From the NCBI RefSeq assembly GCF_002943425.1, contig NZ_PTRA01000010.1, positions 1-64,000 on the forward strand: 64,000 nt of DNA, in the 5' to 3' direction. Under the pieces are notes generated by a model, which searched no databases, was not told the origin of the DNA, and worked only from the letters and a program-made list of their open reading frames with translations. Source of the stretch: Siphonobacter curvatus. Its GTDB lineage: Bacteria; Bacteroidota; Bacteroidia; Cytophagales; Spirosomataceae. The position numbers and the translations under genes were made by a program. This document shows, piece by piece, positions 3,460 to 52,175 of this stretch. How positions within the stretch are numbered: the first letter of the stretch is position 1; every line of letters begins with the position of its first letter.

Positions 3460-4755
3460 TTACCCGGAGTAATACACTTCATTAACGGGTTGAAAAGAAG
3501 TTGATATTTCTGGCACACTCTTAACTAATTTCCCGCCTAAAAGTTCACGTTCCATGGCTGATAAAATCACCTTTTTACTTAAATGACGTTTGGCATAACT
3601 GCGCGCATTTGCTTGAAAAAAGGCCAGATTAGTTTTTAAAGCCATATCAATTCCTGCCACTAATGCTGATAAGGATTCTGGTTCCACCACTAATCCTAAT
3701 TGTCTATCAGACACCAGGTTATGCAGTGTGGTACCCGGATCAGCAGTTACTAAAACGCAACCACCCGCTGCTAAAATAGGTCCTAGTTTGGAAGGCAGTA
3801 ATAAATCGGCTGCTGCTTTCTTTTGTAAGACTAAGTGTAAATCTGCCGTAGCCAACAACCGTGACATATCTTCACTTTTCTGCAGGGGGAAAAACTTAAC
3901 GTTCGTCAGTTTATCCGCGTCAACCTTCTCAATTAATCGCTCTTTGGCTCCACCCGAACCTACCACAACAAAATAAATATGTGGAAATTTCTGATAGTGT
4001 TTAGCCGCTTCAATAATTAATTCCAAGCCTTGTTTCTCACCTAAATTTCCGGCATACAGAATAACTTTATCCGTATTACGTAAACCAAATTCTTTGCGCA
4101 AAGAAGCCGATTTAGGTAAGGGTTGAATGGCTTCCATGTCTACCCAATTGGGAAACACGTACGTTTTATTTTCACCTACTTCTTTTTGGATAATTTTCTT
4201 TTCCATTGCTAAGCTAATGGTGGAAACACGATCCGCTTTATTTAAAATAAACTTCTCCGCTTTAAAAAGAATGTTTAATAAGCTTTTGTTTTTAATCATC
4301 CCTAAATCTTTAGCCGCATCGACTTGAAGATCCTGTACATGAATGTAAAACAATGAACCTTTGAGTAAACTATACAAATAGGCAACAAAGCTTAAATGAA
4401 ACGGAGGAGCTACGCAAAGCACTACGTCCGCTTTGGGTTTAAAAAGTAAAGGAATCCAGTAAACTAAACTGCTGAGCAAAAAAGAAAACTCATGGATGAT
4501 GCGTTTGGCCGCACTTACTTGCTTGGGAACGTAAAAGGGACACCGGTGAACGGTCACGCCCTTGAGCAGATGCGTGTGCCATAACTTCCCTTTAAAATCG
4601 GTCTGTACTTCCCACTGCGGATAATAAGGAAACGTGGTAATCACTTCTACTTCGTGCCCAGTTTCCGCCAACCACGCCCCTAATTCTCCCGTATATTTAC
4701 CAATGCCCGTTAATTCAGGTGCATAATTGATGCCATAGATTAATACTTTTTTCAT
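3460..4755 (-). CDS. Glycosyltransferase family 4, WcaI-like
   Basis: 431 residues. The N-terminus (LIYGINYAPELTGIGKYTGE, then W-L-A-E-T-G-H-E-V-E-V-I-T-T-F-P-Y-Y-P) is the hallmark of WcaI/WbuB-type GT4 enzymes of colanic-acid-like polysaccharide pathways. The C-terminal half carries the nucleotide-sugar binding part (ILYAGNLGEKQGLE and the LLPSKLGPILAAGG segment). It presumably adds a sugar to a lipid-linked repeat unit at the inner face of the membrane. It stands alone: 712 bases separate it from the rest of the polysaccharide operon, and it has its own candidate promoter and terminator. Its base composition is visibly more AT-rich than the operon, suggesting a separate origin. Confidence 0.88.
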   Translation of the reverse strand: MKKVLIYGINYAPELTGIGKYTGELGAWLAETGHEVEVITTFPYYPQWEVQTDFKGKLWHTHLLKGVTVHRCPFYVPKQVSAAKRIIHEFSFLLSSLVYWIPLLFKPKADVVLCVAPPFHLSFVAYLYSLLKGSLFYIHVQDLQVDAAKDLGMIKNKSLLNILFKAEKFILNKADRVSTISLAMEKKIIQKEVGENKTYVFPNWVDMEAIQPLPKSASLRKEFGLRNTDKVILYAGNLGEKQGLELIIEAAKHYQKFPHIYFVVVGSGGAKERLIEKVDADKLTNVKFFPLQKSEDMSRLLATADLHLVLQKKAAADLLLPSKLGPILAAGGCVLVTADPGTTLHNLVSDRQLGLVVEPESLSALVAGIDMALKTNLAFFQANARSYAKRHLSKKVILSAMERELLGGKLVKSVPEISTSFQPVNEVYYSG

Positions 4756-31198: not shown

Positions 31199-33169
31199 TT
31201 AACGCTTTTTCTGCACCAGCAGATGCTGCAAGCGCGGATCCCGCTGCATCTCATCCAGGCAATCCCCTACCAGCGTGATTACCTCTTCACGTATACGTTT
31301 CACCGTCTGATCAAGCGTATCCGCCCCCAGGGTTCTTACGATGGGCACATCCGTAAATTGTTTTTCCTCCCGGGCGAGTGCTGCATGGTCATTGCGAATG
31401 CGCGCGTGAAAAGCCTTGCGCGGAATCTCACACCCGGGCTCATCGCCCACGAGTCCCACAAACTCCCCCGAAGACAACGTAGCAATCCGTGAAACGGGCA
31501 AGGCATAGTCCAGGTGCTGGGCGTGACTAAAAGAAGTATCCGTACGATTGACGGAATAGCTCCTGCGATCCTGCACAATCTTACCGATGCGCTCGGAAAG
31601 CTGCCGGGCCGTCTCGCCCGTTACCTGGCCCGCGATGACGTTACTCGTTAAATTAAAAAGCACGTCAGCGGGGTCCTTGCCATAATCTTTGCGTAACTGA
31701 CTTAAATCCTGCAGGGCTAAGGTCACCGCGATTTGATTGGAGCGCGCCGTAGCCAGGGTTTTGTCCATTTCGTGCAGGTAAATCGTCGGAAACTCATCAA
31801 ACACCAGACTGGCCGGATGGCGCCCTTTCTGGTTACAGAGCTTGAGCAGACGATTGACGTACAGGGACACGATCGCCCCGTTGGCCGCCGAGCGCAGGGG
31901 GTTGTTGCCCATGCAAATGATCTTAGGACGGGCGGGGTCATTGAGATTCAAATCAAAATCATTGCCGGATAGCAGATAATACATCGTGGGGGAAACCAGC
32001 TTGGCCAGCGAAATTTTTACCGAAGCCAGCTGCCCTTCAACCTGCTCCATGGCATTGTTGAGATACGCCGAGACAAAGGGACTGACGCGTTTACGCAGGT
32101 CTTCGTCGCGTTGCAGCACGCTAAACAGGCGGTCATAATCCATGTGCAGGAGTTCAATGGCGTGCGGGAGCGTGCAGTAGCGACCGTCTTGGTAGAGCCG
32201 CAGAAACCAGAGTAAGGCCGCCAGCAGACTAAACGAGGAGCTGACAAAAAAGTCCTTCCGCTGAATCCAGTCCCGGTTCAGACTCAGCAGCAAGGTTTCG
32301 GCCGATTCATCGGCGTCCTGCAGGGTCAGCAAATACGTTGCCGCTACGGGGTTACAGCGGTGCGAGCGGGACAAATCATCAAAATTCAGCACGTAGAAGG
32401 ACAGGCAGGAGCGCTGCTGGCGATAGTGGTAATAGGCAATGCGGGTTAAATCATCGTACTTAAAATCGTAGATAAACATCGCAAAGCCCTTGGCCAGATG
32501 CTGCTGGATGACGTGCCGAATGACAAAGTAGGATTTTCCCGCGCCGGGCATGCCCAATACCATCAGCCCCCGAAAGGGATTAATGACGTTGATCCAGCCG
32601 CGGTGGCGTTTACCCCGGTACATAAAGTCCGTCGGAAAATGCAAAGCGTAGGCATTGGGAAGCCGGCGCTGCTCCTGGGGAAAGGTTTCATTGGCGTGAT
32701 TAAAGGGCTCGCCCTGCCAGTGCTTTTGAATAATGCGCGAGACTTGACTCCCGCCGCGCAACAGCAGTAAATACCCTCCACCCGTTAGGCCCAGGTACGT
32801 GCTCACCAGCGTCGGGGTGGGCCAAGCGGTAACGAACACCCAGGGACTCGTTGCGTAGAGGACCAGGCCCACCCCCATCCATAGGGCCGCGGCAGTTACC
32901 GAGTAGCGTTCATCCTTTCGCCCCTGGACGCCGAGTAAGGAAAGGGCTAAAAATCCCAGGGCTAATAGTTTAGAGGTAGCCAGGGTATCAAAGAGGCCCG
33001 TCTGGGCGATGTGCCGCAGCAAACGGTCCGTAATCGGATGGGTGAGCTGCCAGCCCAGAAAGGCCTGATACCCGTAGTAATAGCCGTGAAGGCCCAGCAG
33101 ACTGACGCTAATGAGTCGCGTCAGGTCGAGGATGCCGCGTAGCGCCTGCGTGTTTTCTCCCGTGTTCAT
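31199..33169 (-). CDS. mobC: Conjugation coupling ATPase MobC (VirD4/TraG-type)
   Basis: 656 residues. Four N-terminal hydrophobic segments (about 15-35, 65-80, 93-110, 120-140) are followed by a P-loop ATPase domain with Walker A GMPGAGKS (206-213). Later are the family segments FDEFPTIYLHEMD (Walker B-like) and RSNQIAVTLALQDLSQLRKDYG. This is the Bacteroidetes MobC, which brings the relaxase-DNA complex to the secretion channel. It is the last gene of the module, 14 bases after mobB. Confidence 0.92.
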   Translation of the reverse strand: MNTGENTQALRGILDLTRLISVSLLGLHGYYYGYQAFLGWQLTHPITDRLLRHIAQTGLFDTLATSKLLALGFLALSLLGVQGRKDERYSVTAAALWMGVGLVLYATSPWVFVTAWPTPTLVSTYLGLTGGGYLLLLRGGSQVSRIIQKHWQGEPFNHANETFPQEQRRLPNAYALHFPTDFMYRGKRHRGWINVINPFRGLMVLGMPGAGKSYFVIRHVIQQHLAKGFAMFIYDFKYDDLTRIAYYHYRQQRSCLSFYVLNFDDLSRSHRCNPVAATYLLTLQDADESAETLLLSLNRDWIQRKDFFVSSSFSLLAALLWFLRLYQDGRYCTLPHAIELLHMDYDRLFSVLQRDEDLRKRVSPFVSAYLNNAMEQVEGQLASVKISLAKLVSPTMYYLLSGNDFDLNLNDPARPKIICMGNNPLRSAANGAIVSLYVNRLLKLCNQKGRHPASLVFDEFPTIYLHEMDKTLATARSNQIAVTLALQDLSQLRKDYGKDPADVLFNLTSNVIAGQVTGETARQLSERIGKIVQDRRSYSVNRTDTSFSHAQHLDYALPVSRIATLSSGEFVGLVGDEPGCEIPRKAFHARIRNDHAALAREEKQFTDVPIVRTLGADTLDQTVKRIREEVITLVGDCLDEMQRDPRLQHLLVQKKR

Positions 33170-33183
33170 GCGTAGTAGCCAGG

Positions 33184-34236
33184 TTACAGGTGAAGACGCG
33201 GGCGTAGGTTGGGTGCCGCGTCAAGTTCGGGTACATGCCGGGCGCGTAGGCCCTGTTGGAGGTGAGTCGGACTGAGTTGAAAGGCTTTTTCCAGGCCCGG
33301 TCCCTGCAGGCCTGCCGACAGGCGCGTGGCCTGCACGGCAATCGCCCGCCCGTGATCGACGTACACCAGCGCGCTATCCGTTAGCACGGCCTGGATTGCC
33401 TGACCCCGCAAGGACGCCAGGAAGTCGCTTAGGCTTGGCGAGCGCTCCAGACACCAGCGTAGCTTGTTTTCCAAAGCGCGGGGGGCACTGGGCTGGAGGG
33501 CGTGCCAGGCAAATTGTTTTTCCAGCGCCGCTAACGTGGGCTTGCCCGGCAGCTTACTGGCCGGAATGGGAACCGAATGCGACTGCCCTTGCCCATCCAG
33601 CCGCTGGTAATACAGGCCCGGCACGTGACCGGGGCCCGGGTTCCGCTGGCGCACCTGTAGCGCATACCCCTGCAGAATCGCATTGAATTCCACCAGGCTG
33701 GTGTAGGCGTAGGTTTGGCGGATGTGGGCTACCGTGGCAGCCAGTGTAGGCGTCTGGGCCGGGTAAAGCGCACGCGCCTGGCGCGCGGGGATTAGGCCCC
33801 AAGTCAGTTCCAGGTGCTGAGCGGCTTGCTTGATGGCGTAAGGCGCCGCATTGATGCGCCGCCCCTGCGCCGTAATATTGGTCGTGAGCACGTGTAGGTG
33901 CGGGTGCGCTACGTCGTGGTGCTGGTAGACCAGATAGGGCTGGCGGGCGTAGCCAATGCGCTCGAGGTAGGCTTCGGCCATCTGTTTGAGCCGCCGCGGG
34001 GACAGGGCATCCTTCGGGTGAAAATTAAGCGTCAGGTGAACGTAGGGCTTTTTTACTTTTTTATTGAGCTCAGCCCGCTGTTGCAGGCGCAGGCGTTTCT
34101 GGGACAGGCTTAAGGTTTCGGCCGCCCGGGGATAATAGCCCGCATCGAGGCACTGCGCCTGGCCCTGGGCTACTTTTTGCTCGTTGTAGTGCAGGGCCCG
34201 CTGAATCTGCCGGGTGGCACTCATGATGGCAACCAT
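33184..34236 (-). CDS. mobB: Conjugative relaxase MobB
   Basis: 350 residues. The relaxase nicks oriT and stays bound to the 5' end. The metal-binding core is visible: HHDVAHPHLHV at residues 106-116, giving His111, His113 and His115 (H-P-H-L-H), preceded by KPYVHLTLNFHPKD. The nucleophile tyrosine is probably Tyr18 in ALHYNEQK near the N-terminus, as in MobP-type enzymes. The start overlaps mobA by 16 bases. The C-terminal half is rich in leucine, alanine and glutamine and unassigned. Confidence 0.9.
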   Translation of the reverse strand: MVAIMSATRQIQRALHYNEQKVAQGQAQCLDAGYYPRAAETLSLSQKRLRLQQRAELNKKVKKPYVHLTLNFHPKDALSPRRLKQMAEAYLERIGYARQPYLVYQHHDVAHPHLHVLTTNITAQGRRINAAPYAIKQAAQHLELTWGLIPARQARALYPAQTPTLAATVAHIRQTYAYTSLVEFNAILQGYALQVRQRNPGPGHVPGLYYQRLDGQGQSHSVPIPASKLPGKPTLAALEKQFAWHALQPSAPRALENKLRWCLERSPSLSDFLASLRGQAIQAVLTDSALVYVDHGRAIAVQATRLSAGLQGPGLEKAFQLSPTHLQQGLRARHVPELDAAPNLRPRLHL

Positions 34237-34542: not shown

Positions 34543-35292
34543 TTACAGGGGACGGGCGGTTTGCAGGTGACGCGGCGAAAGGGTCAGGGTCAGGCGCCCC
34601 CCGCCGGTTTTTTCGGCTAGTTCCAGGCGAAGGACCTTGCGGGGGTTCCAGGACTGGGCCGGCAGGGCCACCACCAGCGGCTGCTGCTGACCGGGCGCGA
34701 CCTTGACGGGCACGAACTGTAGCCCCGCAATCGGCACGTGTTGCCGGGCCGTTCGCTTCGGCAGGCGGCGATCCTGCAGGCGGGCCTCCACGGTTCCCGT
34801 CACCCAAGGAAGGCGCGCGGCATTCGTCAGCGCCAACAGCACATACAATCGCTGCTCGTGCCGGTAGAGTCCCCGTACCCGTAGCTTGGCTCCACCCCGC
34901 CGGACGTGGGGCCGGCGCAGAAAAGGCCGCGCCTGCAAGGCCCGCTGGGCAGTCTCACTAAAAGTCACCGATCCTTCCCGGTGCCGCCAGACCAGGGGCT
35001 GAGGCTGCTCCTGGTAGCGCAGTTCAAAGCTGTAGAGTTTCCCGTCGCTGGTAATGACGGTGAGGTTGGTGGGCTCGAAAGCTTTGCGGGCCGCCTTCAC
35101 GAGCAACACGTTGTCCAGAGCCTGGGACGACTCGGCGAGCACCTGGCCACTGCCCCGATCTACGCTCAGGATGGACGTCGGAAAAATCAAGTGGGTGGTT
35201 TTTCGAAAGCTTAGCGCTAAAGTATCCGGTGGGGTTTGCCCGCGACTAGCTAGGCTTAGGGCCAGGAGCCCCAGTAGAAGCAAACGTTTCAT
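34543..35292 (-). CDS. traN: Conjugative transfer protein TraN (DUF4138)
   Basis: 249 residues with signal peptide (to about residue 18). The sequence THLIFPTSILSVDRGSGQVLAE, NVLLVKAARKAFEPTNLTVIT and DGKLYSFELRYQEQP is typical of Bacteroidetes TraN, a VirB9-like component of the outer-membrane part of the channel. It overlaps traM by 4 bases. Confidence 0.9.
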   Translation of the reverse strand: MKRLLLLGLLALSLASRGQTPPDTLALSFRKTTHLIFPTSILSVDRGSGQVLAESSQALDNVLLVKAARKAFEPTNLTVITSDGKLYSFELRYQEQPQPLVWRHREGSVTFSETAQRALQARPFLRRPHVRRGGAKLRVRGLYRHEQRLYVLLALTNAARLPWVTGTVEARLQDRRLPKRTARQHVPIAGLQFVPVKVAPGQQQPLVVALPAQSWNPRKVLRLELAEKTGGGRLTLTLSPRHLQTARPL

Positions 35293-36332
35293 AAACGGCT
35301 AGGATTTAAGGGTTGAAGTAGCACCTGATAGCCCGCGGGCAAGGTCACCTTGCGGGCCCGGCCGTGTTTCTGCAGCAGCGTTTGCGCCGTCTGCAAGCCG
35401 AGTTGCGCCGCCTGCGTTTCCAAGCCCCCGACGGGGAGCATCAGCCGCTGGGCCGAGCGCTGGGCGGATTCCTGGAGGGATTCCCGCGTCAGCGAGCCCG
35501 GAACCAACAGGCCTTCGATGCCGTCGACATCGTAGACCGTCAGTTGGACGGGCAGTAGCGTTTGCCCCCGTCGCAGGCTCACGATGGAAATCAGCAACCG
35601 CTCCCCCCGGAGCTGCGCCTGTCCACAGAGCGGCTGCTGGGCGGGCAGTTCCATGGTCCCCAGGCGTCCGGGTTCGGTCAGGCGCAAGCAGACAGTAGCC
35701 CCCGGCTGAATTGTTTGGGTGTGAGCAATCTCTGCCCGCAAGGCCGCAGGCGGGCCTGCCTGGAGGCTTAGCCCGTAGAAGGCATTGGATAAACTGTCGG
35801 GTCGAGTGGCCACGACGGGGGCGGTAGCCGCGGGAAGGGAATCCGTCGCCCCGCGTTGCACGAGAATCACCTTGTCCAGCAAGGCATGCAAGGCTTTCAA
35901 TTCCGGATCTGGCCCGGGATCGGGTCGCGGTAAACGCGGCAACCCGGGGGAATCGTGCTCGGTGGCTAGCACCGGCGGCAAGCGGACCGGGACTTCGGCG
36001 TAGCGATGCTCTAAGGCATCGAGTTGGTGCATCACCTGGGTCCGCTGGCGCTGACTGCGCTGCCAGGCCTGCTGCTCGAGGGAATCCGCCGGAAAGCGTA
36101 CCTGGTCCAGTCGGCTGGAATCCAGGGCGGCCTTTTCGTAGGTCTTGAGCTTGTCGAGGATACCGGCCTCTTTAAATACCGCCTCGGGCAACCGATCGTT
36201 CAGTTTACTTTCCACCGGAGCCTGGGGTCCGCCCCCGCCCAGCGCGTAAAAGGCCAACGTGAGTAGCGGAACCACGAGCAGAGGCAACCAAAGCAGGGCC
36301 CGCTGCGGCGGAGTCAAAGTCGAGAGCATCAT
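35289..36332 (-). CDS. traM: Conjugative transfer protein TraM (VirB10-like)
   Basis: 347 residues. One membrane segment near the N-terminus (LLWLPLLVVPLLTLAFYAL), a proline- and charge-rich middle, and a C-terminal domain with QTIQPGATVCLRLTE, VYDVDGIEGLLVPGS and the TLPAGYQVLLQP end are typical of Bacteroidetes TraM. It should span the periplasm to link both membranes. Followed by traN with a 4-base overlap. Confidence 0.9.
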   Translation of the reverse strand: MMLSTLTPPQRALLWLPLLVVPLLTLAFYALGGGGPQAPVESKLNDRLPEAVFKEAGILDKLKTYEKAALDSSRLDQVRFPADSLEQQAWQRSQRQRTQVMHQLDALEHRYAEVPVRLPPVLATEHDSPGLPRLPRPDPGPDPELKALHALLDKVILVQRGATDSLPAATAPVVATRPDSLSNAFYGLSLQAGPPAALRAEIAHTQTIQPGATVCLRLTEPGRLGTMELPAQQPLCGQAQLRGERLLISIVSLRRGQTLLPVQLTVYDVDGIEGLLVPGSLTRESLQESAQRSAQRLMLPVGGLETQAAQLGLQTAQTLLQKHGRARKVTLPAGYQVLLQPLNPSRL

Positions 36333-36343
36333 CGCAAGAAGGG

Positions 36344-36493
36344 TTAAGGATGTAAGGAAGAATCCGCAAAGCGCGCATTGGCGGGATTAAAAAGCTCCAA
36401 AGCCAAGAGCAGGACCAGGAGCGCCAGGGGTAAGGCCCAGGCCAGCAGCAGGCCATAGGTGCGCCAGGGTTCGGGCCAGGAGCGCCACTTCAT
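36344..36493 (-). CDS. Very small membrane protein in the traL position
   Basis: 49 residues (MKWRSWPEPWRTY... ending SSLHP) with a single hydrophobic helix (about 13-34). Its ATG overlaps the TGA of traK (ATGA), and traM starts 11 bases later. In Bacteroidetes elements traL lies between traK and traM, but TraL is normally about twice this length, so this could be a shortened TraL or a substitute. No frame damage is seen. Confidence 0.65.
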   Translation of the reverse strand: MKWRSWPEPWRTYGLLLAWALPLALLVLLLALELFNPANARFADSSLHP

Positions 36494-37098
36494 GGCCGAA
36501 TGTCCCGGTTTTCCAGCGTCGTCCAGCGCTCGATTAAAAAGCCATGGGGATTGTGCTCGGAGCGTCCCACGCTGCGCAGACGTCCCTGCGTGACCAGGCG
36601 CCGCCGCACGGTATGACTGCTGCGAATCAAGCGTTGCGTGGCCACGCAGCGAAAACGATAGGGATGCTCCGTGGTATTCACGCTGATGCTGTCGACCTCG
36701 ATGCGCTGACTTATATTGCCAGCGACCACCCCGGCATAGTACCCGCTCTCTTTTAAATTGTCGTAGGCTTGCTTGGCTGAACCATCGGCCAGGTAGAAGG
36801 CCTGACGCAGATTGGCCTGAATGAGTTTTTCGTCGGGATCCAGCGTAAAAAAGTGCTGATGAAAGGTTTTGACGTGATCGCGGGTTTCAATGGCTAGTTG
36901 CTCCTTTTGGCCGGCGGCGTACGCTTCCAGGGCCTGACCAGCCGCCAGAACGTAGACGCGCTGGCGGCTTTCTGTAATCAAGCGGTGGCTTAGATACAGG
37001 GCAAAGGCTCCCAGGGCCAGACTACCGGCGATGACGCAAAGGGTAAAGGTGCGCAGGATGCGAAAAGCGGCATCCAGGCTACGAAGTCGTTGGAACAT
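36490..37098 (-). CDS. traK: Conjugative transfer protein TraK (VirB8-like)
   Basis: 202 residues. One N-terminal membrane segment (about 17-37), then the TraK pattern SRQRVYVLAAGQALEA, DHVKTFHQHFFTLDPDEKLI and SGYYAGVVAGNISQRIEVDSI. It should form part of the inner-membrane core of the mating channel. Starts 23 bases after traJ and overlaps the small traL-like gene. Confidence 0.92.
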   Translation of the reverse strand: MFQRLRSLDAAFRILRTFTLCVIAGSLALGAFALYLSHRLITESRQRVYVLAAGQALEAYAAGQKEQLAIETRDHVKTFHQHFFTLDPDEKLIQANLRQAFYLADGSAKQAYDNLKESGYYAGVVAGNISQRIEVDSISVNTTEHPYRFRCVATQRLIRSSHTVRRRLVTQGRLRSVGRSEHNPHGFLIERWTTLENRDIRP

Positions 37099-37121: not shown

Positions 37122-38189
37122 TTAACTGCGGTCCGTTTTGGAGGAAGCAAGCAGAGCCTGAATCCCGGATGCCGTCCTACTCAGGTATTGCGTCACCCGC
37201 ATTTGCAGGATCTGGCTGCCACTACTCTGTACGAGGTAGCTGGCTACTGAGGGTACGGCCACATAGCCCAGGATGCCCATGAGTAAAAAGATTAAATACG
37301 CCGAATCGGCGGGGCTAAAAAAGGTATCGCCCGTGCTGTCAATCTGTTGCAAATCCAGTTTAAGCAGGTTCTCCTGAATTTTGCCGATGATGCTCCCAAA
37401 GAGATTGGCCACCGGCAACCACAAATACACCTGCACATAGCGCGCCAGCCAGGCCGTCAGGGTCGCTTGAAAGCCATCAAAAATGGCGATTCCAAACACC
37501 AGGGGTCCCAGAATCGCCAGGACAATCAGCGTAAACGTGCGAATCGTATTGATGCACAGGGCGGCCGCTTCAAAAAGCAGCTGCAATATTTCGCTCATCC
37601 ATTCTTTGACCGAGTTGCGGAAGCGGTAGGCCGCTTTGGCCATCGCAAATTCCACGTCATGCCCGAGGCTTTCCAAGGGCCCCTCCCCTAGGGCTTCGTG
37701 CGTGTACTCAAACCAGCGGTCGCGGTCGCCTTCCCCACTCAGCCCGACGTACATTTGCCAGGTATCGGTTTGTTCCAGGGCTTTTTGCTTCCGCTCGAGC
37801 AAGGTCTCAATGGCCTGATTGGAGCGGGTGACCATCCCCTCGGTAACGGTGGTGACGGGTTTGAGCAGGCCATTGATCAGCGCCAGCACACTGGGATAAG
37901 CTACAATGCAGAAGCCCAGGGCAAAGGGGCGCAGCAGGGGAAACAGGTCCACGGGTTCGGCGGCGGCCAAATGTCGCCATACCCGTACGGCGATGTAAAA
38001 CAGGGCGGCAAAACTCCCCAGCCCCCGGGCTACGCCCGTGAGTTGACTACAGAGGGGAATCATCTCATCGTAAATCTGGGCGAGTACGGCATGCAGACTC
38101 GCCGCCGTTTGGGCCTGACTCCCCAGGGGCAGCAGCACGAGCGCGCCCGTGAGCAGCCAAGAAGATCGAAAGGTTACGGGTGGTACCAT
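37122..38189 (-). CDS. traJ: Conjugative transfer protein TraJ (VirB6-like)
   Basis: 355 residues with a signal peptide and about seven membrane segments. Family segments: LTGVARGLGSFAALFYIAVRVWRHL, PFALGFCIVAYPSVL and YLWLPVANLFGSIIGKIQ. TraJ is the polytopic inner-membrane channel protein. It overlaps the preceding secreted-protein gene by 16 bases. Confidence 0.92.
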   Translation of the reverse strand: MVPPVTFRSSWLLTGALVLLPLGSQAQTAASLHAVLAQIYDEMIPLCSQLTGVARGLGSFAALFYIAVRVWRHLAAAEPVDLFPLLRPFALGFCIVAYPSVLALINGLLKPVTTVTEGMVTRSNQAIETLLERKQKALEQTDTWQMYVGLSGEGDRDRWFEYTHEALGEGPLESLGHDVEFAMAKAAYRFRNSVKEWMSEILQLLFEAAALCINTIRTFTLIVLAILGPLVFGIAIFDGFQATLTAWLARYVQVYLWLPVANLFGSIIGKIQENLLKLDLQQIDSTGDTFFSPADSAYLIFLLMGILGYVAVPSVASYLVQSSGSQILQMRVTQYLSRTASGIQALLASSKTDRS

Positions 38190-39386: not shown

Positions 39387-40045
39387 CGGCGTAAGGCTTC
39401 GCGTTCCCGCTGGGAGTGCGCCCGCCCCAGCCGGATTTCCAGGTTCTGTTGATTAAAACGCAGCAGGTCTTCGTAGTTTTTCTCCACTGCATCAGCCGCC
39501 GCTTCAATCAGCGCCAGGCGCTCGGCATCGGTCATGCGGGTGCGAAAGGATTCCACCACCAGTAACAGGCGCTGCATGTTTTCCCCGCTAGCTTGCAGAA
39601 TGCCCCGGTACACCCGGTTCATATGCGCCCGCTCGTTCGGCGTGAAGGTGGGATCCTGCTGCAACTGCGTCCAGGTCCGCTGGTAGAGCGCTTCCAGGGC
39701 GTAGTAACGCAGCGAAACCGCCCGAATCCGGTGAAAGAAGGCCAGGGTTTGTTTGACCCGAGCGAGTTCCTCAAAGTAATCCGCGTAGAGTTTGCGGTGC
39801 TGCTCGAGCCAGTCGGCAATTTGCTCGAGTTTGAGCTTGGCCATGGTATTCTCCAGCGCCTTCTGCGCATTTTGCAACCAGATGACCTTGTTCTGCTCCC
39901 GCTGAATGACTAAATCCGCGGCTTTGATGACCTTGACGATGGCCTGCTTGATGATTTCGGCCAGGGGCAGAGCCGCCTGGACCGATGGGCGGGGACCCGC
40001 CAGGCATAGGCCCAGCGTCAAGAGAAGTACACGTGCGGTTTTCAT
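39362..40045 (-). CDS. traI: Secreted conjugation protein TraI (Bacteroidetes type)
   Basis: 227 residues, signal peptide to about residue 24. The core AADLVIQREQNKVIWLQNAQ, ENTMAKLKLEQIADWLEQHRKLY and DYFEELARVKQTLAFFHRI is the hallmark of the protein annotated TraI in Bacteroidetes transfer regions (not the F-plasmid relaxase). Mostly helical; probably periplasmic. Ends RRWYGSSLP. Overlaps traG by 4 bases. Confidence 0.85.
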   Translation of the reverse strand: MKTARVLLLTLGLCLAGPRPSVQAALPLAEIIKQAIVKVIKAADLVIQREQNKVIWLQNAQKALENTMAKLKLEQIADWLEQHRKLYADYFEELARVKQTLAFFHRIRAVSLRYYALEALYQRTWTQLQQDPTFTPNERAHMNRVYRGILQASGENMQRLLLVVESFRTRMTDAERLALIEAAADAVEKNYEDLLRFNQQNLEIRLGRAHSQREREALRRWYGSSLP

Positions 40046-42522
40046 GGGCTTTCAAGGGTAGTAGAGTCACGCCGTTCCGCGGCTAACATCGCTAGGCCCT
40101 GCTGAAAGCTGCCGTAGCGCCGGGCGTAAGCCGTCACCTGCATTTTTTCGCGCTCCTCCGTCGTGTAGCACAAGTACTCGGTCGGCGATACCTGTACGCG
40201 GTAGACGTTGGACCACTCACTGCCCAGGCTAATGAACACTTCCTTGTAGGATTCGCCGGCAGCGCGGGCTTTGTTGAGGGACATGACCTGCGCCTTTTGC
40301 TTTTCGGTTAAGCCCAGCAGTTGCTGGAGTTGCTCCATCTTCGGGGCCTGTTTGAATTGGCCCAGAAGAATTTTACAATCCGCATTGGCCAGGATCGCTT
40401 GCTTGACGATTGGACTTGAGATGATGTCATCAATTTCCTGGGTAACCACAATTGCCTCCCCAAAGGATTTGCGCACGGTTTTAAAGACGTAGCGAATGTA
40501 TTCCCCCATTCCTTCGCGGGCAATGGCCTTCCAGGCTTCCTCAATGAGCAGTATTTTCCGGACGCCCTGGAGTTCCAGCTTTTTCATAAAGACCTCCATA
40601 ATCATCAGCGTGACCACGGGCAAAAGAATCCGGTGATCCTGAATCTGCGAGAGCTCGAAAATGATGAGCCGCTGCTCCACCAGATCCAATTGGGTTTCGG
40701 CGTTGAGCAGGTAGTCAAACTCCCCTCCTTGGTAAAAGGGCCGCAAGACGTAGAGCAGGTTGTCGAGATCAAACGCCTGGGTTTGTTGCACCGGATCGTT
40801 TTTCACCTGGCTGGCGTATTCGACAAACAAGTATTCGTAAAAACGATTAAAACAGGGAAATACGTCCGGATGCGCCGCCTGCCAACGGGCATAGCCCCGC
40901 AGCGCACTCGATAGTCCAGTGTACTCACTCGGGGTTAACTCGGAATGCTGTTTTTTCCAAAGCGCCCCCAGCAATCCTTTCAGCAGTTCCATTTTTGCCG
41001 GTTCCCAGGGCTGGCCCGGCTCGCCGTAAAAGGGATTAAACGCCAGGGGCGCCTGGGAGGTATACGTAAAATAGTAGCCCTGTACCAGTTCACACAGCCC
41101 CGCATAGCTATGGCCAATATCGACTAACACAATGTGTGCCCCTTGCTCATAGTAACTGCGTACCAAGTGATTGGTAAAAAACGATTTGCCGCTCCCACTC
41201 GGGCCCACAATAAACTTGTTTCGGTTGTCAATATGGCCCTGCTCCCGCGGCTCATCGCTCAGGTCTACGTGCAGCGGGTAGCCCGTCAGCCGCTCGCCCA
41301 AACGTAGGCCGACCGGACTCAGCGACGTGCGGGTACTGCGTTCGAGCATCAGCCAGCAAGCAACGGGCTCCAGCAGGGTTTGTACGGTTTCCTCCCGGGG
41401 AAGCTCGGCCGCATTGCCCGGCAGTCCCGCCCAGAACAGTTGCGCTTCGATCACGGTTTCTTCTTTGGCCACGGCCTCCAGCCGCTGAAAGGCGGCGACC
41501 ACCTGGGGCTTGATGGCCTGTAATTCGGCCTCGGTAGGGGCCCAGCAAAGCACATTGATGTGGGCTTTGACCGGACGGCGGCCCTGGGCAAAGGCTTCGT
41601 CTAAAAAGGCCTGTACCGATGCATAGGTTCGTTGATTTTCCCGGGAATGCTGTGAAAGCGCCTGTAAACGAAGACGCTGCTGTTCCCAGCCCTGAAGCAC
41701 CTGCGCATCCGACTCCAGCACTAGGTATTGGTTGTAAATGTGGTTGCAGGGCAGCAGTTGGCCCAGTACACTACTTAAGCCCGTAGCCACGGGTGCCTTT
41801 TCCGACGAATAGGCTTCCAAGGGCCGGCTTACGCCACAAAGGGTGGGCCAACTGGCCGCCTCGGCTAGGGTATACACACAGGTAGCCTGACTACCCACGC
41901 GGAGTTTGGGCTTTAAGGTGACCTCCTTAATCTGCGGCGCATCCGAAGCCCCGGCTAGGTGCCAATACCGCTCCACGAGCCCTGGTCGATGGGCCGTAGA
42001 CCAGTAGTCGTCCCGGGTCAACTTTCGCAAGCGCAGCCAACCACTTTGCTCCAATTCATGCCTAAACTGCTGTACGCTTTGCTCGAAAGCGCTTAGGGCT
42101 TCAGCATCTAGGGTCTGCTGGGGCAGTAAAGAAGGTTTAAGCAAGGTATTCCAGAGCGAGGTGGCCGCTCGCCGCTGGCGGGGTTTACACGTGATATACA
42201 AATAACACTCCTGGGCGAGATACGGCCGGCCGGCAAAGAAGCGATCACTGCTGCGGCTAAGAAAACTAGGCGTTTGGGTCGGGGCGGGCAGGGAAACCTG
42301 CTCCCTTACAAACCAATCCTGCTTGTGTAGCAGGCAGCCGGCGGGAAGGCCTTTAATCGCTTTTACCCAGCTTTGGTGCAAAGTCTCATAATCCCTTGCA
42401 TCCATTGAAAAGAGCTCGGGCAACTCCACTTGAAAGCCAAGGGTGACGTCCCCCTGTTTGGAAAGCAGCACATCCTCTTCAACATCCAATAAGGGATAGC
42501 ATTCATTCAGGTCTTTTCTCAT
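40042..42522 (-). CDS. traG: Conjugation ATPase TraG (VirB4-like)
   Basis: 826 residues, the usual size. This motor powers pilus or channel assembly. Walker A is GPSGSGKS (440-447), followed by HIVLVDIGHSYAGLCE. Further conserved are LIFELSQI, LLIEEAWKAIA (Walker B) and RKSFGEAIVVTQEIDDI. The N-terminal DLNECYPLLDVEEDVLLSKQGD is the typical start. Overlaps traF by 20 bases. Confidence 0.95.
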   Translation of the reverse strand: MRKDLNECYPLLDVEEDVLLSKQGDVTLGFQVELPELFSMDARDYETLHQSWVKAIKGLPAGCLLHKQDWFVREQVSLPAPTQTPSFLSRSSDRFFAGRPYLAQECYLYITCKPRQRRAATSLWNTLLKPSLLPQQTLDAEALSAFEQSVQQFRHELEQSGWLRLRKLTRDDYWSTAHRPGLVERYWHLAGASDAPQIKEVTLKPKLRVGSQATCVYTLAEAASWPTLCGVSRPLEAYSSEKAPVATGLSSVLGQLLPCNHIYNQYLVLESDAQVLQGWEQQRLRLQALSQHSRENQRTYASVQAFLDEAFAQGRRPVKAHINVLCWAPTEAELQAIKPQVVAAFQRLEAVAKEETVIEAQLFWAGLPGNAAELPREETVQTLLEPVACWLMLERSTRTSLSPVGLRLGERLTGYPLHVDLSDEPREQGHIDNRNKFIVGPSGSGKSFFTNHLVRSYYEQGAHIVLVDIGHSYAGLCELVQGYYFTYTSQAPLAFNPFYGEPGQPWEPAKMELLKGLLGALWKKQHSELTPSEYTGLSSALRGYARWQAAHPDVFPCFNRFYEYLFVEYASQVKNDPVQQTQAFDLDNLLYVLRPFYQGGEFDYLLNAETQLDLVEQRLIIFELSQIQDHRILLPVVTLMIMEVFMKKLELQGVRKILLIEEAWKAIAREGMGEYIRYVFKTVRKSFGEAIVVTQEIDDIISSPIVKQAILANADCKILLGQFKQAPKMEQLQQLLGLTEKQKAQVMSLNKARAAGESYKEVFISLGSEWSNVYRVQVSPTEYLCYTTEEREKMQVTAYARRYGSFQQGLAMLAAERRDSTTLESP

Positions 42523-42838
42523 GGTTCATTGGCATGAATAGGGTACGGGAAGTCAGTGAAAGATGAGACGGCAGCTGGCGGCGGGCCCAGAATTTAAGCA
42601 AGCCCTGCGCCCCGTACCGCTGACTCCAGCGGTGCAGCAGGTAGGCCCAGCCGCCGCCCAGACCGCCTACCAGACTCACACACCCCAGAGCTGGCAGGCC
42701 CAGCGCGTAGAGCAGAACAAAGCTTAAAAACAGGCCGATCAGACTCAGCACCAGATAGAGCAGATACTGCGCTTTAAACCCATAAAGCTCAACGGGGCGA
42801 TTTATGCCCTGATGCGTAGCGTAGGAACGGTTCGTCAT
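42503..42838 (-). CDS. traF: Conjugative transfer protein TraF (DUF4133)
   Basis: 111 residues with two membrane segments (about 26-44 and 49-66). The start YATHQGINRPVELYGFKAQYL is diagnostic of DUF4133/TraF, a VirB3-like partner of the TraG ATPase. Begins 18 bases after the end of the second traE exon. Confidence 0.92.
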   Translation of the reverse strand: MTNRSYATHQGINRPVELYGFKAQYLLYLVLSLIGLFLSFVLLYALGLPALGCVSLVGGLGGGWAYLLHRWSQRYGAQGLLKFWARRQLPSHLSLTSRTLFMPMNHEKRPE

Positions 42839-42856: not shown

Positions 42857-45082
42857 CTATACGCCGAAAAACGATTTAATAACCGTAGCCACGACGACCA
42901 GAAAAACGCAACTACCAAACCAGGCCGCAGCCACTTTGTTGGTGTCCTGATCACCGGAATTCCACTTTTGAATCGAGTAGGTAAGGGGAATCGCACCCCA
43001 AACCTCTCACAGAACCGTGCGTGAACGTCTCCGCTCACACGGCTCTTCTTATTCAGCCAACTGCCCGTTGCTTGCGATTACGCAGACTTGCAGTGGGTTT
43101 GACCCCATAAGACCAGTGGGCAAACAAGTGGGGTTTGGTCAAACAGATGTCCCCCAGCCTATGAATAGCACGTGTCTTATGCTTTCTAAACCCTTTGAAC
43201 TTATTGCGAATCCAACGAGACAACTTCATGTTTATGCGCATGAGCACTTCTTTCAGTACTCGTGGGTTGTACTTGCCATAGTAGTTGATCCACCCCTGAA
43301 TGATAGGATTGATCTTGTCTGCGATTTGCTCCAGGGTGAGATAGTTCCAGTAGTGCTGGTTCCAGTCCCTGATGGTGCTCCAGATTTTCGTCCTTGCCGT
43401 CTTACTGATGGCCGGTGAGAAATTCAGGAATACTACGCCGTGCGCGTCGATAGACCTTCTGGGCTTGAAGGTGTAACCAAGGAAATCGAACTGGATCGTA
43501 TCGTATTCGATGTCACGATGGTTCTTCTTACAGTACACAATCGTTGTCGCATTGAGTTCCAGCTTGCAATCCGCCAAACGCTGCTTAATCAGGCGTTGGA
43601 TGAATTGGGCTTGTTTCAGACTTACACAGTGCACCAGGATCTCATCGGCGTACCGCTCGAATGAGAGGTTAGAATGATTTATTTTCATCCATTCGTCGAA
43701 TACATAGTGCAAGAACAGGTTTGCCAGTATCGGCCCAAGGACCGAACCTTGTGGTACTCCTTTGGTTCTTTGCACGTGTCTCCCCGCGGCTAACCGGTAA
43801 GGAACCATTAACCAACGTTTGATGTACAACATCGCCCACTGGCAGGTCACGTGCCTTTCGAGGGCTTTGATGAGAAGCGTATGGTCTATGTTATCGAAGA
43901 ACTCCTTGAGGTCAAGGTCAACCACCCAATGAAACAGGTAAGCGCGATCTTTCGCTTTTCCCAGGGCCTGGTGTGCTGATTTGTTCTTCCGATACGCATA
44001 GGAATCTTCATGGAAGTGTGGTTCTATCTCAGGCTCTATGGTCATCACGACCACCATCTGAGCCACACGATCCTCAACCGTTGGAATCCCAAAAGGTATT
44101 TTACCACCACCGGTTTTCGGTATTTCTACCCATTGTACCGGATCAGGCAGGTAACAGCCAGAACTCATGCGGTTCCAGATTTTATAGAGGTTGTCGCTGC
44201 GCTTTTGCTCAAAGTCCCGTATCGATGCAGCATCGATCCCCGCTGCGCCCTGATTGGCCTTTACCTGCTGGTAAGCTTCCCTGACAAGCTGTTGCTTAAT
44301 TTCAAATGGCTTTGCGTCTTTCATTTCAAATCCTCCTAATTCTTCATTAGTTGTTTGAATTAAATTCGCTGAATAAGTCAGTCCCTTCGCTCTACTTCCA
44401 TTACAGAAGCTTCCACGCTACTACAGACTGATCTGTCCCTGTGCGGGGCATCGGTACGCTCATTCTTACAGGATCTCTGCTTGAATTTCTCCCTTAGCAT
44501 CCCCACGACAGGTTCCCGTGTTCCTTGTAAAAGCCTCTATGCAACTCGTGCCGTCTCTATACCGGATGCCGCCAAAGCAGTAAGCAGGTTTCCCTCTGGC
44601 TTATCCCGAACCAAGTTTTGGAGTTCGGTTTTGACATCGTCTTCTGTATTTCGGTACCTCCTCAACGGTTCACTTGTGTTCACCTTTTGCATAGTCACCT
44701 GCCGGAATCTAGTCCGACTTTTCACGTATCGCTCACGACCAAAGCTCTTAACTAAAGCCGCATACGCTGGTTTGAAACCTCCTCCTGTAAGGCGGTTCCG
44801 AGGGGCCTACCCTCATCTTCTACAAAGCACCGGCGTTGTTGTTATTCAGGCAACAACACCGTTCACGGCACACAAAACTTTTACTGCGCCAATCAGCCCC
44901 AGAATGGCGCCTACGGCGTACATGAGTTGGGTACCGGAGTCAAAATACCCCCGGACCAGGGTATTGGCTTCTTCAATGCCGGAGTTGCCGTCTTGCGCAT
45001 AGGTACGCAGGCTCAACAATAGACAGGCACTGAGGAGGGCAAAGGGCCGGGCCGCTTGCCGGGTCATCCACGTAGTTTTCAT
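42857..45082 (-). CDS. traE: Conjugative transfer protein TraE (DUF4134), split by an intron
   Basis: Exon 1 is 44874-45082 (209 nt), exon 2 is 42857-42971 (115 nt); joined they give 324 nt, exactly 107 codons plus stop. Exon 1 encodes a signal peptide and ANTLVRGYFDSGTQLMYAV-GAILGLIGAVKV; exon 2 encodes QKWNSGDQDTNKVAAAWFGS and the hydrophobic tail ending IKSFFGV. Together they rebuild a normal DUF4134 protein (VirB2-like small membrane subunit), with Phe encoded across the junction. Without splicing the frame stops after nine extra codons (78 residues), losing the second membrane segment. Transfer should therefore depend on intron splicing. Confidence 0.9.
42972..44873 (-). mobile_element. 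Group II intron inserted in traE
   Basis: 1902 nt. The 5' end is GTGTG (44873-44869), matching GUGYG, and the 3' end is CTACTCGAT (42980-42972), matching a final AY with a candidate branch-point A seven bases from the end. Domain V is recognisable as a 34-nt hairpin at 43045-43012 (GAGCCG...CGGTTC), followed by a 40-nt domain VI. The last exon bases AAGTTTT (44880-44874) can pair with AAAACTT at 44619-44613, a candidate EBS1, about 255 nt into the intron. The reverse transcriptase gene sits in the expected domain IV. Confidence 0.9.
43053..44324 (-). CDS. ltrA: Group II intron reverse transcriptase/maturase
   Basis: 423 residues, RT plus maturase (X) domains, no HNH endonuclease domain. RT blocks: GAAGIDAASI, IPKTGGGKIPFGIPT, VVDLDLKEFFDNIDH (catalytic Asp136), RTKGVPQGSVLGPILANLFLH and RYADEILVH. 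The catalytic YADD box reads YADE (225-228): Glu228 replaces the second Asp, from a GAG codon. PQGS also replaces the usual PQGG. FDFLGYTFKPR, IIQGWINYYGKY and the basic C-terminus are normal, so maturase function may be intact while reverse transcription is doubtful. Confidence 0.93.
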   Translation of the reverse strand: MKDAKPFEIKQQLVREAYQQVKANQGAAGIDAASIRDFEQKRSDNLYKIWNRMSSGCYLPDPVQWVEIPKTGGGKIPFGIPTVEDRVAQMVVVMTIEPEIEPHFHEDSYAYRKNKSAHQALGKAKDRAYLFHWVVDLDLKEFFDNIDHTLLIKALERHVTCQWAMLYIKRWLMVPYRLAAGRHVQRTKGVPQGSVLGPILANLFLHYVFDEWMKINHSNLSFERYADEILVHCVSLKQAQFIQRLIKQRLADCKLELNATTIVYCKKNHRDIEYDTIQFDFLGYTFKPRRSIDAHGVVFLNFSPAISKTARTKIWSTIRDWNQHYWNYLTLEQIADKINPIIQGWINYYGKYNPRVLKEVLMRINMKLSRWIRNKFKGFRKHKTRAIHRLGDICLTKPHLFAHWSYGVKPTASLRNRKQRAVG

Positions 45083-47643: not shown

Positions 47644-48414
47644 ATGAACTCAATCGCACTCACGGAAGCAAAGAAATTTTGGAAAAAAGCTACGCAGTAC
47701 AAGCAGGCGCCGGACCTGGATCTGGAAACGGAACTGCTGGTCCACCAGCGGATTCTTACGCTTTTTCACGTAGGCCCCTACTATTACTTTATCTTTAATT
47801 TAACCAATAGCCAGGTTGAATACACCAGTGAATCGATACGCGAAGTACTGGGCTGCGCGCCGGAGGACTTTGGCCCCCCCTTTACCCTAGCTCAGATCCA
47901 TCCTGAAGATCTATCCTACTTTCTGAACTTTGAGCACACGGCCGTTGACTTTTTCGGTCAACTACCGCCCGAGCAGATTCGCCGCTACAAGGTTAGTTAT
48001 GATTACCGCATTAAACGAAGGGATGGTCAGTACATCCGTTTACTCCATCAACTCGTCACCCTGCAAGGGGATGAAGAAGGGAGTGTACTCCGCAGCTTAG
48101 GTATTCATACGGATATCACCTCTTTTAAAAAGGAGGGAAAGCCCATGCTTTCTTTTATCGATTTAGAAGGCGACGACTCCTTTATCAATGTAACGCCCAT
48201 GGAAGTGTTTGCTCCGGTTAAGCCCGTCTTGACTCAACGCGAAAAGCAGGTGCTTCGGGCCCTGATGAACGGCATGGCCAGTAAACAGGTAGCCGGCTAT
48301 TTATCGATTGCCAAAGAAACCGTAGACCGACACCGCAAAAACATGCTGGCCAAAACCAGCACTAGCTCGACGGCCGAACTCATCAGTAAAGCCGTTAATG
48401 AAGGCTGGTTATAA
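47644..48414 (+). CDS. PAS domain - LuxR-type HTH regulator (copy 1)
   Basis: 256 residues. A PAS fold at about 45-160 (YYYFIFNLTNSQVEYTSES..., IHPEDLSYFLNFE, VSYDYRIKRRDGQYIRLLHQ, LGIHTDITSFK) senses an unknown signal. The GerE/LuxR HTH at about 192-256 shows LTQREKQVLRALMNGMASKQ and KETVDRHRKNMLAKT. There is no receiver or kinase domain, so it looks like a one-component regulator. It is very similar along its whole length to the protein at 51405-52175, including the last residues (E-G-W-[LV]). Confidence 0.9.
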   Translation: MNSIALTEAKKFWKKATQYKQAPDLDLETELLVHQRILTLFHVGPYYYFIFNLTNSQVEYTSESIREVLGCAPEDFGPPFTLAQIHPEDLSYFLNFEHTAVDFFGQLPPEQIRRYKVSYDYRIKRRDGQYIRLLHQLVTLQGDEEGSVLRSLGIHTDITSFKKEGKPMLSFIDLEGDDSFINVTPMEVFAPVKPVLTQREKQVLRALMNGMASKQVAGYLSIAKETVDRHRKNMLAKTSTSSTAELISKAVNEGWL

Positions 48415-51404: not shown

Positions 51405-52175
51405 ATGACCTTACTTGCGTTTCAAGAAGCAAAAGAGATTTGGCAAAAAGCGGCCTATTATCAGGAAGCTAGCCCACTGGATTTAGCACTAGAACTACAA
51501 ATCCACCGAAAACTGCTCAATGTTTTCCAGGTCGGTCCCTACTACTATTACTTTTTTAACGTATCTACCGGTGAAATCGAGCACACCAGTGATGCCGTTC
51601 AAAAGGTACTCGGCTGCCCGCCCGAGGCCTTTTCCGTGCCCTACGCCTTTTCGCACATGCACCCGGAAGACTTGCCTTATTTTATCCAGTTCGAACGTAA
51701 AGTAACTGAATTTTTCAGGCAGCTAACCCCTAGCCAGGCCCTGCAATACAAGGTAAGCTATGACTTTCGTATCCGGCGGACGAATGGTGTTTACATACGC
51801 ATCCTTCATCAGGTGGTTACCCTGGAAGTAGGTGCTCCGGGTAGCGTGCTGCGGACTCTGGGGATTCATACCGACATTTCTGCCTTTAAACAGGCAGGCA
51901 CGCCCACCCTATCTCTTATCGGCATGGAAGGCCAGCCCTCCTATTTAAACGTCGCCACGGATTCCGTAGGACTGCCGAGCAAACCGGTGCTGACGCTGCG
52001 GGAAAAGCAAGTGCTTTCGGCCATTATGCTCGGAAAAGCCAGTAAGCAAATCGCCGATCTTTTTTCGATTACCAAAGAAACGGTAGATCGGCATCGGAAG
52101 AATATGCTCGAAAAGACCCAGACGCATTCGACGGCTGAGCTGGTAGCCAAAGCCCTGCAAGAAGGCTGGGTATAA
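51405..52175 (+). CDS. PAS domain - LuxR-type HTH regulator (copy 2)
   Basis: 256 residues, the same length and order as copy 1 at 47644-48414. PAS part: YYYYFFNVSTGEIEHTSDAV, MHPEDLPYFIQFERKV, YKVSYDFRIRRTNGVYIRIL, LGIHTDISAFK. HTH part: LTLREKQVLSAIMLGKASKQ and KETVDRHRKNMLEKTQ. The recognition helix (KETVDRHRKNML) is identical in the two copies, so they could compete for the same sites, while the PAS cores differ more. Confidence 0.9.
   Translation: MTLLAFQEAKEIWQKAAYYQEASPLDLALELQIHRKLLNVFQVGPYYYYFFNVSTGEIEHTSDAVQKVLGCPPEAFSVPYAFSHMHPEDLPYFIQFERKVTEFFRQLTPSQALQYKVSYDFRIRRTNGVYIRILHQVVTLEVGAPGSVLRTLGIHTDISAFKQAGTPTLSLIGMEGQPSYLNVATDSVGLPSKPVLTLREKQVLSAIMLGKASKQIADLFSITKETVDRHRKNMLEKTQTHSTAELVAKALQEGWV

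Follow-up and report, generated by a model that had tools for sequence, protein, structure and literature searches.

Group II introns have been found in bacterial conjugation genes before. The Ll.LtrB intron lies in the relaxase gene ltrB and reduced conjugation 3-4-fold; by pairing between its exon-binding site (EBS) and the intron-binding site (IBS) it can attack the spliced mRNA and so depress transfer (PMC6003770); B.th.I1 and B.th.I2 interrupt transfer-region genes of the Bacillus plasmid pAW63 (PMC1196294). Degenerate intron-encoded proteins (IEPs) are rare in bacteria; as of 2015 the one case known was that of the radC intron O.i.I2 (PMC4424553). For TeI4h, a natural YAGD variant of the YADD motif of the reverse transcriptase (RT), a mobility of 2.5e-5% was reported at 37 °C vs 3.4% with YADD (PMC2882425). 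In this study we analysed a stretch of 64,000 nucleotides from Siphonobacter curvatus (contig NZ_PTRA01000010.1, positions 1 to 64,000; hereafter the window), in which the conjugation gene traE is interrupted by a group II intron whose RT carries an altered YADD motif.

The intron is complete, it interrupts the sole traE gene of the genome and its borders are right to the base. It lies on the minus strand, sense to traE, and runs from 5' GTGTG to 3' CTACTCGAT. The original prediction, which named no strand, had given exactly the same coordinates. The interrupted gene and the parts of the intron were assigned as follows.

44874..45082, minus strand: traE exon 1, 209 nt, ending GCA GTA AAA GTT TT (PF13572 positions 3-62)
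44874..44879, minus strand: IBS1 AGTTTT, the last six nt of exon 1 (6/6 pairing with EBS1)
42972..44873, minus strand: group II intron, 1902 nt, single copy (Rfam; ends conserved in relatives)
44697..44814, minus strand: ribozyme 5' core, group-II-D1D4-2 (RF01999)
44614..44619, minus strand: EBS1 AAAACT in a hairpin loop (comparison of introns)
43056..44324, minus strand: IEP, 423 aa, with RVT_1 at 68-286 and GIIM/domain X at 314-385, YADE for YADD (Pfam, NCBIfam)
42972..43047, minus strand: domains V and VI, bulged A at 42978, 7 nt from the 3' end (RF00029; fold z -5.54)
42857..42971, minus strand: traE exon 2, 115 nt including the stop, starting T CAA AAG TGG (PF13572 positions 59-93)

The ends of the intron were fixed independently, because the Rfam match to domains V/VI, the bulged branch-point A, a 6-bp EBS1-IBS1 pairing and two relatives at the same site all bear on them. 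A covariance model had been proposed as a check on the ends, and RF00029 matched over the full model with 66.5 bits (E 7.2e-11, gathering threshold 40), stopping exactly at 42972, which is the predicted 3' border. RF01999 (D1-D4-2) matched with 110.1 bits (E 7.8e-22, gathering threshold 36), and at the 5' border GTGTG at 44873 directly abuts exon 1. Domains V/VI with the bulged A, the domain I core with EBS1-IBS1 and an encoded RT/maturase, by which a group II intron is recognized, were thus all present. An assembly artefact was considered and rejected, since the insertion site is shared with two introns from other genomes (L005 and L008).

When the exons were joined in silico (209 + 115 nt) a TraE of 107 residues was obtained, as had been claimed, and it matched PF13572 (DUF4134) with 128.3 bits over profile positions 3-93 of 93, vs 56.6 and 53.9 bits for the two halves separately. 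The gene had been described as cut after the V of GAVKV; the frame is indeed restored exactly, but the cut lies inside the next codon, TT^T for Phe, and the joined protein reads GAVKV-F-QKWNSGDQDT. In unspliced RNA the frame would end after 78 aa, the predicted nine codons into the intron being made up of the junction codon and 8 further sense codons of the intron. Judged by eye, this product is without the last hydrophobic segment; the original prediction had named the second membrane segment as lost.

The genome itself (6.39 Mb, 19 contigs, 99.93% complete) was searched and contained a single DUF4134 gene, the one in two halves; the second intact traE that the original prediction had named as possible counter-evidence was not found there. 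The intron was also present in one copy only. Further copies are usual but not required for active retromobile introns. No second group II RT able to act in trans was detected in the genome-wide search. Because the intron interrupts the only traE found in the genome, TraE production likely depends on splicing.

A scan of genome contigs with the window IEP yielded two close introns, L005 (Sphingobacteriales metagenome-assembled genome (MAG) 44-61, 85% identity) and L006 (Dyadobacter sp. 50-39, 73%), together with a distant RT, L007. When the family of the window was searched with the L005 protein, 12 of 222 genomes matched at E<=1e-60, own genome included, and two of the others were close, L008 (genus g8, 85%) and L010 (83%). 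The L010 intron was identical to that of L006 and was counted once. Three of 395 class genomes matched at E<=1e-130, the own one and two at 50-52% identity. Among 395 phylum genomes there were 15 with a match, again counting the own one, and identity in the remainder was 47-52%; among 390 order genomes the own genome was the only match. The viral contigs searched contained no relative of the intron, and in the plasmids searched only distant introns were detected, with at most about 55% protein identity among the matches listed and no close plasmid-borne relative.

The introns L005 and L008 were located at the identical codon position of traE, GCGGTAAAAGTTTA^CCAGAAG and GCGGTAAAGGTTTT^CCAGAAG, the first in the Sphingobacteriales MAG and the second in another genus of the family to which the window belongs. 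After the L008 intron come a DUF4133 gene (112.1 bits) and a frame that by eye looks like TraG; the L005 module differs, since its traE is followed by a DUF1896-like gene and by a frame that is open over a long stretch. Identity to the window intron was 89.6% for L005 and 78.8% for L008, vs 62.3% and 61.3% for the traE genes, and synonymous divergence between window and L005 amounted to 0.42 in the IEP vs 3.27, near saturation, in traE. Because the introns are far more alike than the genes that contain them, we concluded that the intron moved horizontally between traE genes which had already diverged.

To define the site, uninterrupted traE genes were surveyed in the 30 best-scoring loci; 104 of the 390 order genomes had a match. 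The motif GA[VI]KV[Y/F] was present in 28 of the 30, and in 25 of these 28 the exon end fully pairs (G-U allowed) with an EBS1 from the set of four close introns (window, L005, L006 and L008). Thus the codons of the conserved TraE motif GAVKV[Y/F] are the homing target, and the EBS1 loop variants match synonymous forms of these codons. At two places (G071:C13:16827-16994 and G051:C4:549016-549180) DUF4134 was matched in part only, over profile positions 38-93 and 39-93; these, one of them with a stop, are possibly broken traE genes.

The L006 intron was found in a transposase-like frame, GGCGTAAAAGCATA^TGTGG, with its EBS1 altered to match. We take this transposase to be of the IS3 type. Upstream of the intron this host gene is read in two different frames (L006:2070-2457 and 4361-4430) and looks frameshifted. 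When the flanks of eight distant introns (46-61% protein identity to L005) were joined, six gave open transposase-like frames, presumably IS3- or IS66-like, and two (L011, L020) did not.

The EBS1 loop reads AAAACT in the window, TAGACT in L005, AATACT in L008 and TATGCT in L006, and the corresponding last six exon bases are AGTTTT, AGTTTA, GGTTTT and AGCATA. All six positions form Watson-Crick pairs in the window and in L006, and L005 has one G-U pair. For 13 introns the pairings with their own exons scored 182, vs a mean of 117 and a maximum of 160 in 20,000 random re-pairings; this is not a strict probability, as the loops were hand-picked from the alignment with a free offset and the introns are related. 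L017, L018, L021-L024, L026, L058 and L059 were left out of the score, because their 5' ends were unclear or cut, because they were copies or fragments or because they had not been extracted. For EBS3 there was one candidate column, which varied with the first base of exon 2 among the four close introns; judged by eye it did not hold for the distant introns and was rejected. In L008 (L008:950-1215) the loop AATACT mispairs with its own GGTTTT and pairs fully with other traE alleles (e.g. AGTATT in L038, L052 and L054), which hints at recent arrival from another traE allele or at drift of the exon codon.

A consensus structure of the 5' part of the intron (549 columns), predicted from the same four close introns and therefore leaning towards them, comprised 158 pairs, 14 with compensatory change. 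Pair 14-42 was changed on both sides, from U-A to G-C, in the window intron alone. According to the pair table the window intron breaks one of the 158 pairs (460-483).

The IEP matched TIGR04416 with 362.5 bits (cut-off 300) and contains RVT_1 and GIIM; no endonuclease domain was found in it with Pfam and NCBIfam. Compared to L005 and L006 it has YADE for YADD, KIPFGIPT for KRPLGIPT and LKEFFDN for IKGFFDN, as well as a two-residue deletion. In an alignment with 25 relatives, which are not independent of each other, 39 columns were invariant with at most one gap allowed, and the window IEP departs at four of these, all in the RT: R76I, L78F, D228E and K261A (L005 numbering). D228 is present in 25/25 relatives and each of the other three in 24, the remaining one being a gap. 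L018 and L066 (truncated rows) and L061 (aberrant at 23 departures, probably because its frame is wrong or its RT divergent) were set aside in a leave-one-out count, and every other relative departs at two columns at most; L017 departs at two and carries a stop. The alignment did not include L019, L021-L024 and L026. Upstream of the IEP start, at 44331-44337 on the minus strand, the ribosome-binding-like sequence AGGAGG was observed in all four close introns. Bacteroidota seldom use sites of the AGGAGG type.

Codon models of four sequences gave an omega on the window branch of 0.253 vs 0.080 elsewhere for residues 1-300 (p 1.2e-4), and of 0.103 vs 0.091 for residues 301-425 (p 0.78). With the Pfam borders the corresponding values were p 7.3e-4 for RVT_1 and p 0.61 for GIIM. 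An omega of 1 on the window branch was rejected for both parts (p 1.6e-5 and p 4.0e-6, respectively). With each of the other three tips as foreground no significant rise was detected in residues 1-300; L008 had a lower omega in RVT_1 (p 0.024) and tended to a higher one in 301-425 (0.577, p 0.066). L022 yielded no usable frame in this comparison. Changes unique to one row, counted where the other three codons agree, were 38 nonsynonymous and 26 synonymous in the window vs 17.5 and 56.5 in the three others together (Fisher test on rounded counts, p 5.3e-5). These data suggest a relaxation of selection specific to the RT. The intact YADD of an active retromobile intron is replaced by YADE, and the combination described for O.i.I2, with RT residues lost, the frame open and domain X conserved, is present.

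From these observations we consider it probable that the full-length intron is for the most part no longer mobile and persists as an element that only splices, since the conjugation module needs TraE. An endonuclease-less RT/maturase intron would have entered traE by RNA-guided homing, its EBS1 pairing with the GAVKV[Y/F] codons. After transcription the ribozyme, aided by its own maturase, would excise itself and join the exons, giving TraE, and without splicing TraE would be truncated before the last hydrophobic segment. The RT active site appears to be lost with YADE and the three other residues; the ribozyme and the maturase domain seem to stay constrained, the latter by purifying selection on residues 301-425, and maturase activity may have been retained. 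Splicing in vivo, loss of RT activity and the reason for retention are what we infer from the sequence. More tentatively, the intron, locked in the sole copy of a conjugation gene, may be in transition from a mobile retroelement to an obligate splicing-only one, its RT decaying and its ribozyme and maturase being maintained by selection for TraE. With the same reservation, this could be a bacterial parallel to the organellar MatK, in a lineage whose YADD-bearing sisters home to these TraE codons in their synonymous forms.

Several observations weigh against a splicing-only intron. The relaxation in the RT was estimated from four sequences, and by location the unique residue changes did not differ between the window (26 in 1-300, 6 after) and the others (10 and 6; Fisher test, p 0.18). 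The exchange of D for E is a conservative one, and the RT may still be active to some extent. The EBS1-IBS1 pairing is not always perfect, as L008 has one mismatch and one G-U pair and L014 by inspection seems mismatched too. An EBS2-IBS2 match, sought by eye, was seen for L012/L020 only and was not resolved for the traE introns. Finally, one of the four close introns (L006) is in a transposase gene, and the lineage is not confined to traE.

We also considered that the element could be an ordinary mobile group II intron that splices and still retrohomes, its IEP changes being harmless drift or host adaptation. The IEP frame is fully open with an overall window-branch omega of 0.189, well under 1, YADE retains a carboxylate, and an IEP can adapt through point changes, as in Ef.PcfG/Ll.LtrB (PMC5072309). 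However, four residues invariant in the relatives were lost, all of them in the RT, omega rose in the RT only, the genome has one copy, and the natural YAGD variant of TeI4h had a far lower mobility than with YADD (PMC2882425). We regard continued mobility as unlikely.

The traE gene belongs to a conjugation module of the Bacteroidetes type, which is likewise encoded on the minus strand and comprises a coupling protein, a relaxase, a DUF4138 protein, TraM, TraK, TraJ, three genes, TraG, DUF4133, TraE and a small gene.

42503..42838, minus strand: DUF4133 protein (PF13571), presumably TraF
40042..42522, minus strand: TraG conjugation ATPase (TIGR03783, 889.4 bits)
37122..38189, minus strand: TraJ (TIGR03782)
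36490..37098, minus strand: TraK (TIGR03781)
35289..36332, minus strand: TraM (PF12508, 127 bits, above the Pfam cut-off; TIGR03779, 142.6 bits, below the NCBIfam cut-off of 172.45)
34543..35292, minus strand: DUF4138 protein (PF13595), which we take to be TraN
33184..34236, minus strand: relaxase (PF03432)
31199..33169, minus strand: type IV coupling protein (PF14293, PF02534)

No Pfam match was obtained for the three genes between TraG and TraJ and for the small gene before traE. TraE-F-G-J-K-M-N, presumably the gene order of CTnDOT-type modules, was found here along with relaxase and coupling protein. The listed tra frames are open along their whole length, which is compatible with, but no proof of, a functional element supplied with TraE from spliced RNA. 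This argues against a dead insertion, in which splicing would be lost, traE knocked out and the conjugation module decaying; the ribozyme core, domain V/VI, the branch A, EBS1-IBS1 and both exons are intact too, and the maturase part is under purifying selection. We therefore regard a dead insertion as improbable.

As its EBS1 and IBS1 match perfectly, the window intron could also attack the spliced mRNA as Ll.LtrB does, and this would be inhibition, not a switch. The original prediction was right in that TraE should rely on splicing, and Ll.LtrB lowers relaxase mRNA and conjugation (PMC6003770), but its further proposal of a potential switch for transfer, in which controlled splicing efficiency decides when the element transfers, is very improbable, as no regulatory feature was found in the sequence, where no systematic search for one was made, simple inhibition or neutrality would look identical, and the close relative in a transposase gene argues for target availability and not control.

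Elsewhere in the window, two similar frames of 256 aa at 47644-48414 and 51405-52175 (plus strand), which flank other frames, by eye have a PAS-like start and a LuxR-like end, and are a possible local duplication. The minus strand at 3460-24021 contains an apparent polysaccharide cluster (by eye) with glycosyltransferases, a flippase, acetyltransferases, nucleotide-sugar enzymes and a Wzc-like protein.

Loss of mobility with splicing retained is a step towards the splicing-only introns of organelles, and one bacterial case of it was known in 2015 (PMC4424553). L005 and L008, which carry YADD and lie at the same gene position, offer a natural control, so that it can be tested in what order and at what cost the RT is lost. 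A Bacteroidota conjugation gene is moreover a recurrent, codon-defined landing site. Among the matches listed from the open-licence literature, no paper on a group II intron in traE was found. The locus is known in kind from Ll.LtrB (relaxase gene) and from O.i.I2 (RT-degenerate bacterial intron); new are the RT-specific departures, YADD to YADE and three more, in a traE intron with preserved splicing parts.

Like the window intron, Ll.LtrB (Lactococcus lactis pRS01) and Ef.PcfG are maturase-bearing group II introns in a conjugation gene whose product needs splicing (PMC6003770), with homologous introns in other hosts (PMC6003770, PMC4256276, PMC5072309). Unlike here, the host gene of Ll.LtrB is a relaxase gene and its mobility was demonstrated. 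LtrA has an endonuclease domain, of which none is reported in the window protein, and Ll.LtrB belongs to group IIA. B.th.I1 and B.th.I2 likewise interrupt conjugation genes, B.th.I1 in a well-conserved domain, although the genes and hosts are others and splicing was inferred there (PMC1196294). The RmInt1-type introns (class D, rhizobia) share an endonuclease-less RT/maturase, and many plasmid matches of the window IEP are rhizobial; those listed reach at most about 55% protein identity. RmInt1 homes into a transposase gene. O.i.I2 (Oceanobacillus iheyensis, radC) has likewise lost YADD with its frame open and its host gene in need of splicing (PMC4424553). However, its IEP is of the ML class, its host gene serves DNA repair and other motifs were lost besides YADD; the RT of the window is less decayed. 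The MatK/trnK intron of chloroplasts can be likened to the window intron in that RT was lost and domain X kept in an essential host gene (PMC4424553), but MatK is organellar, far more divergent and binds several introns.
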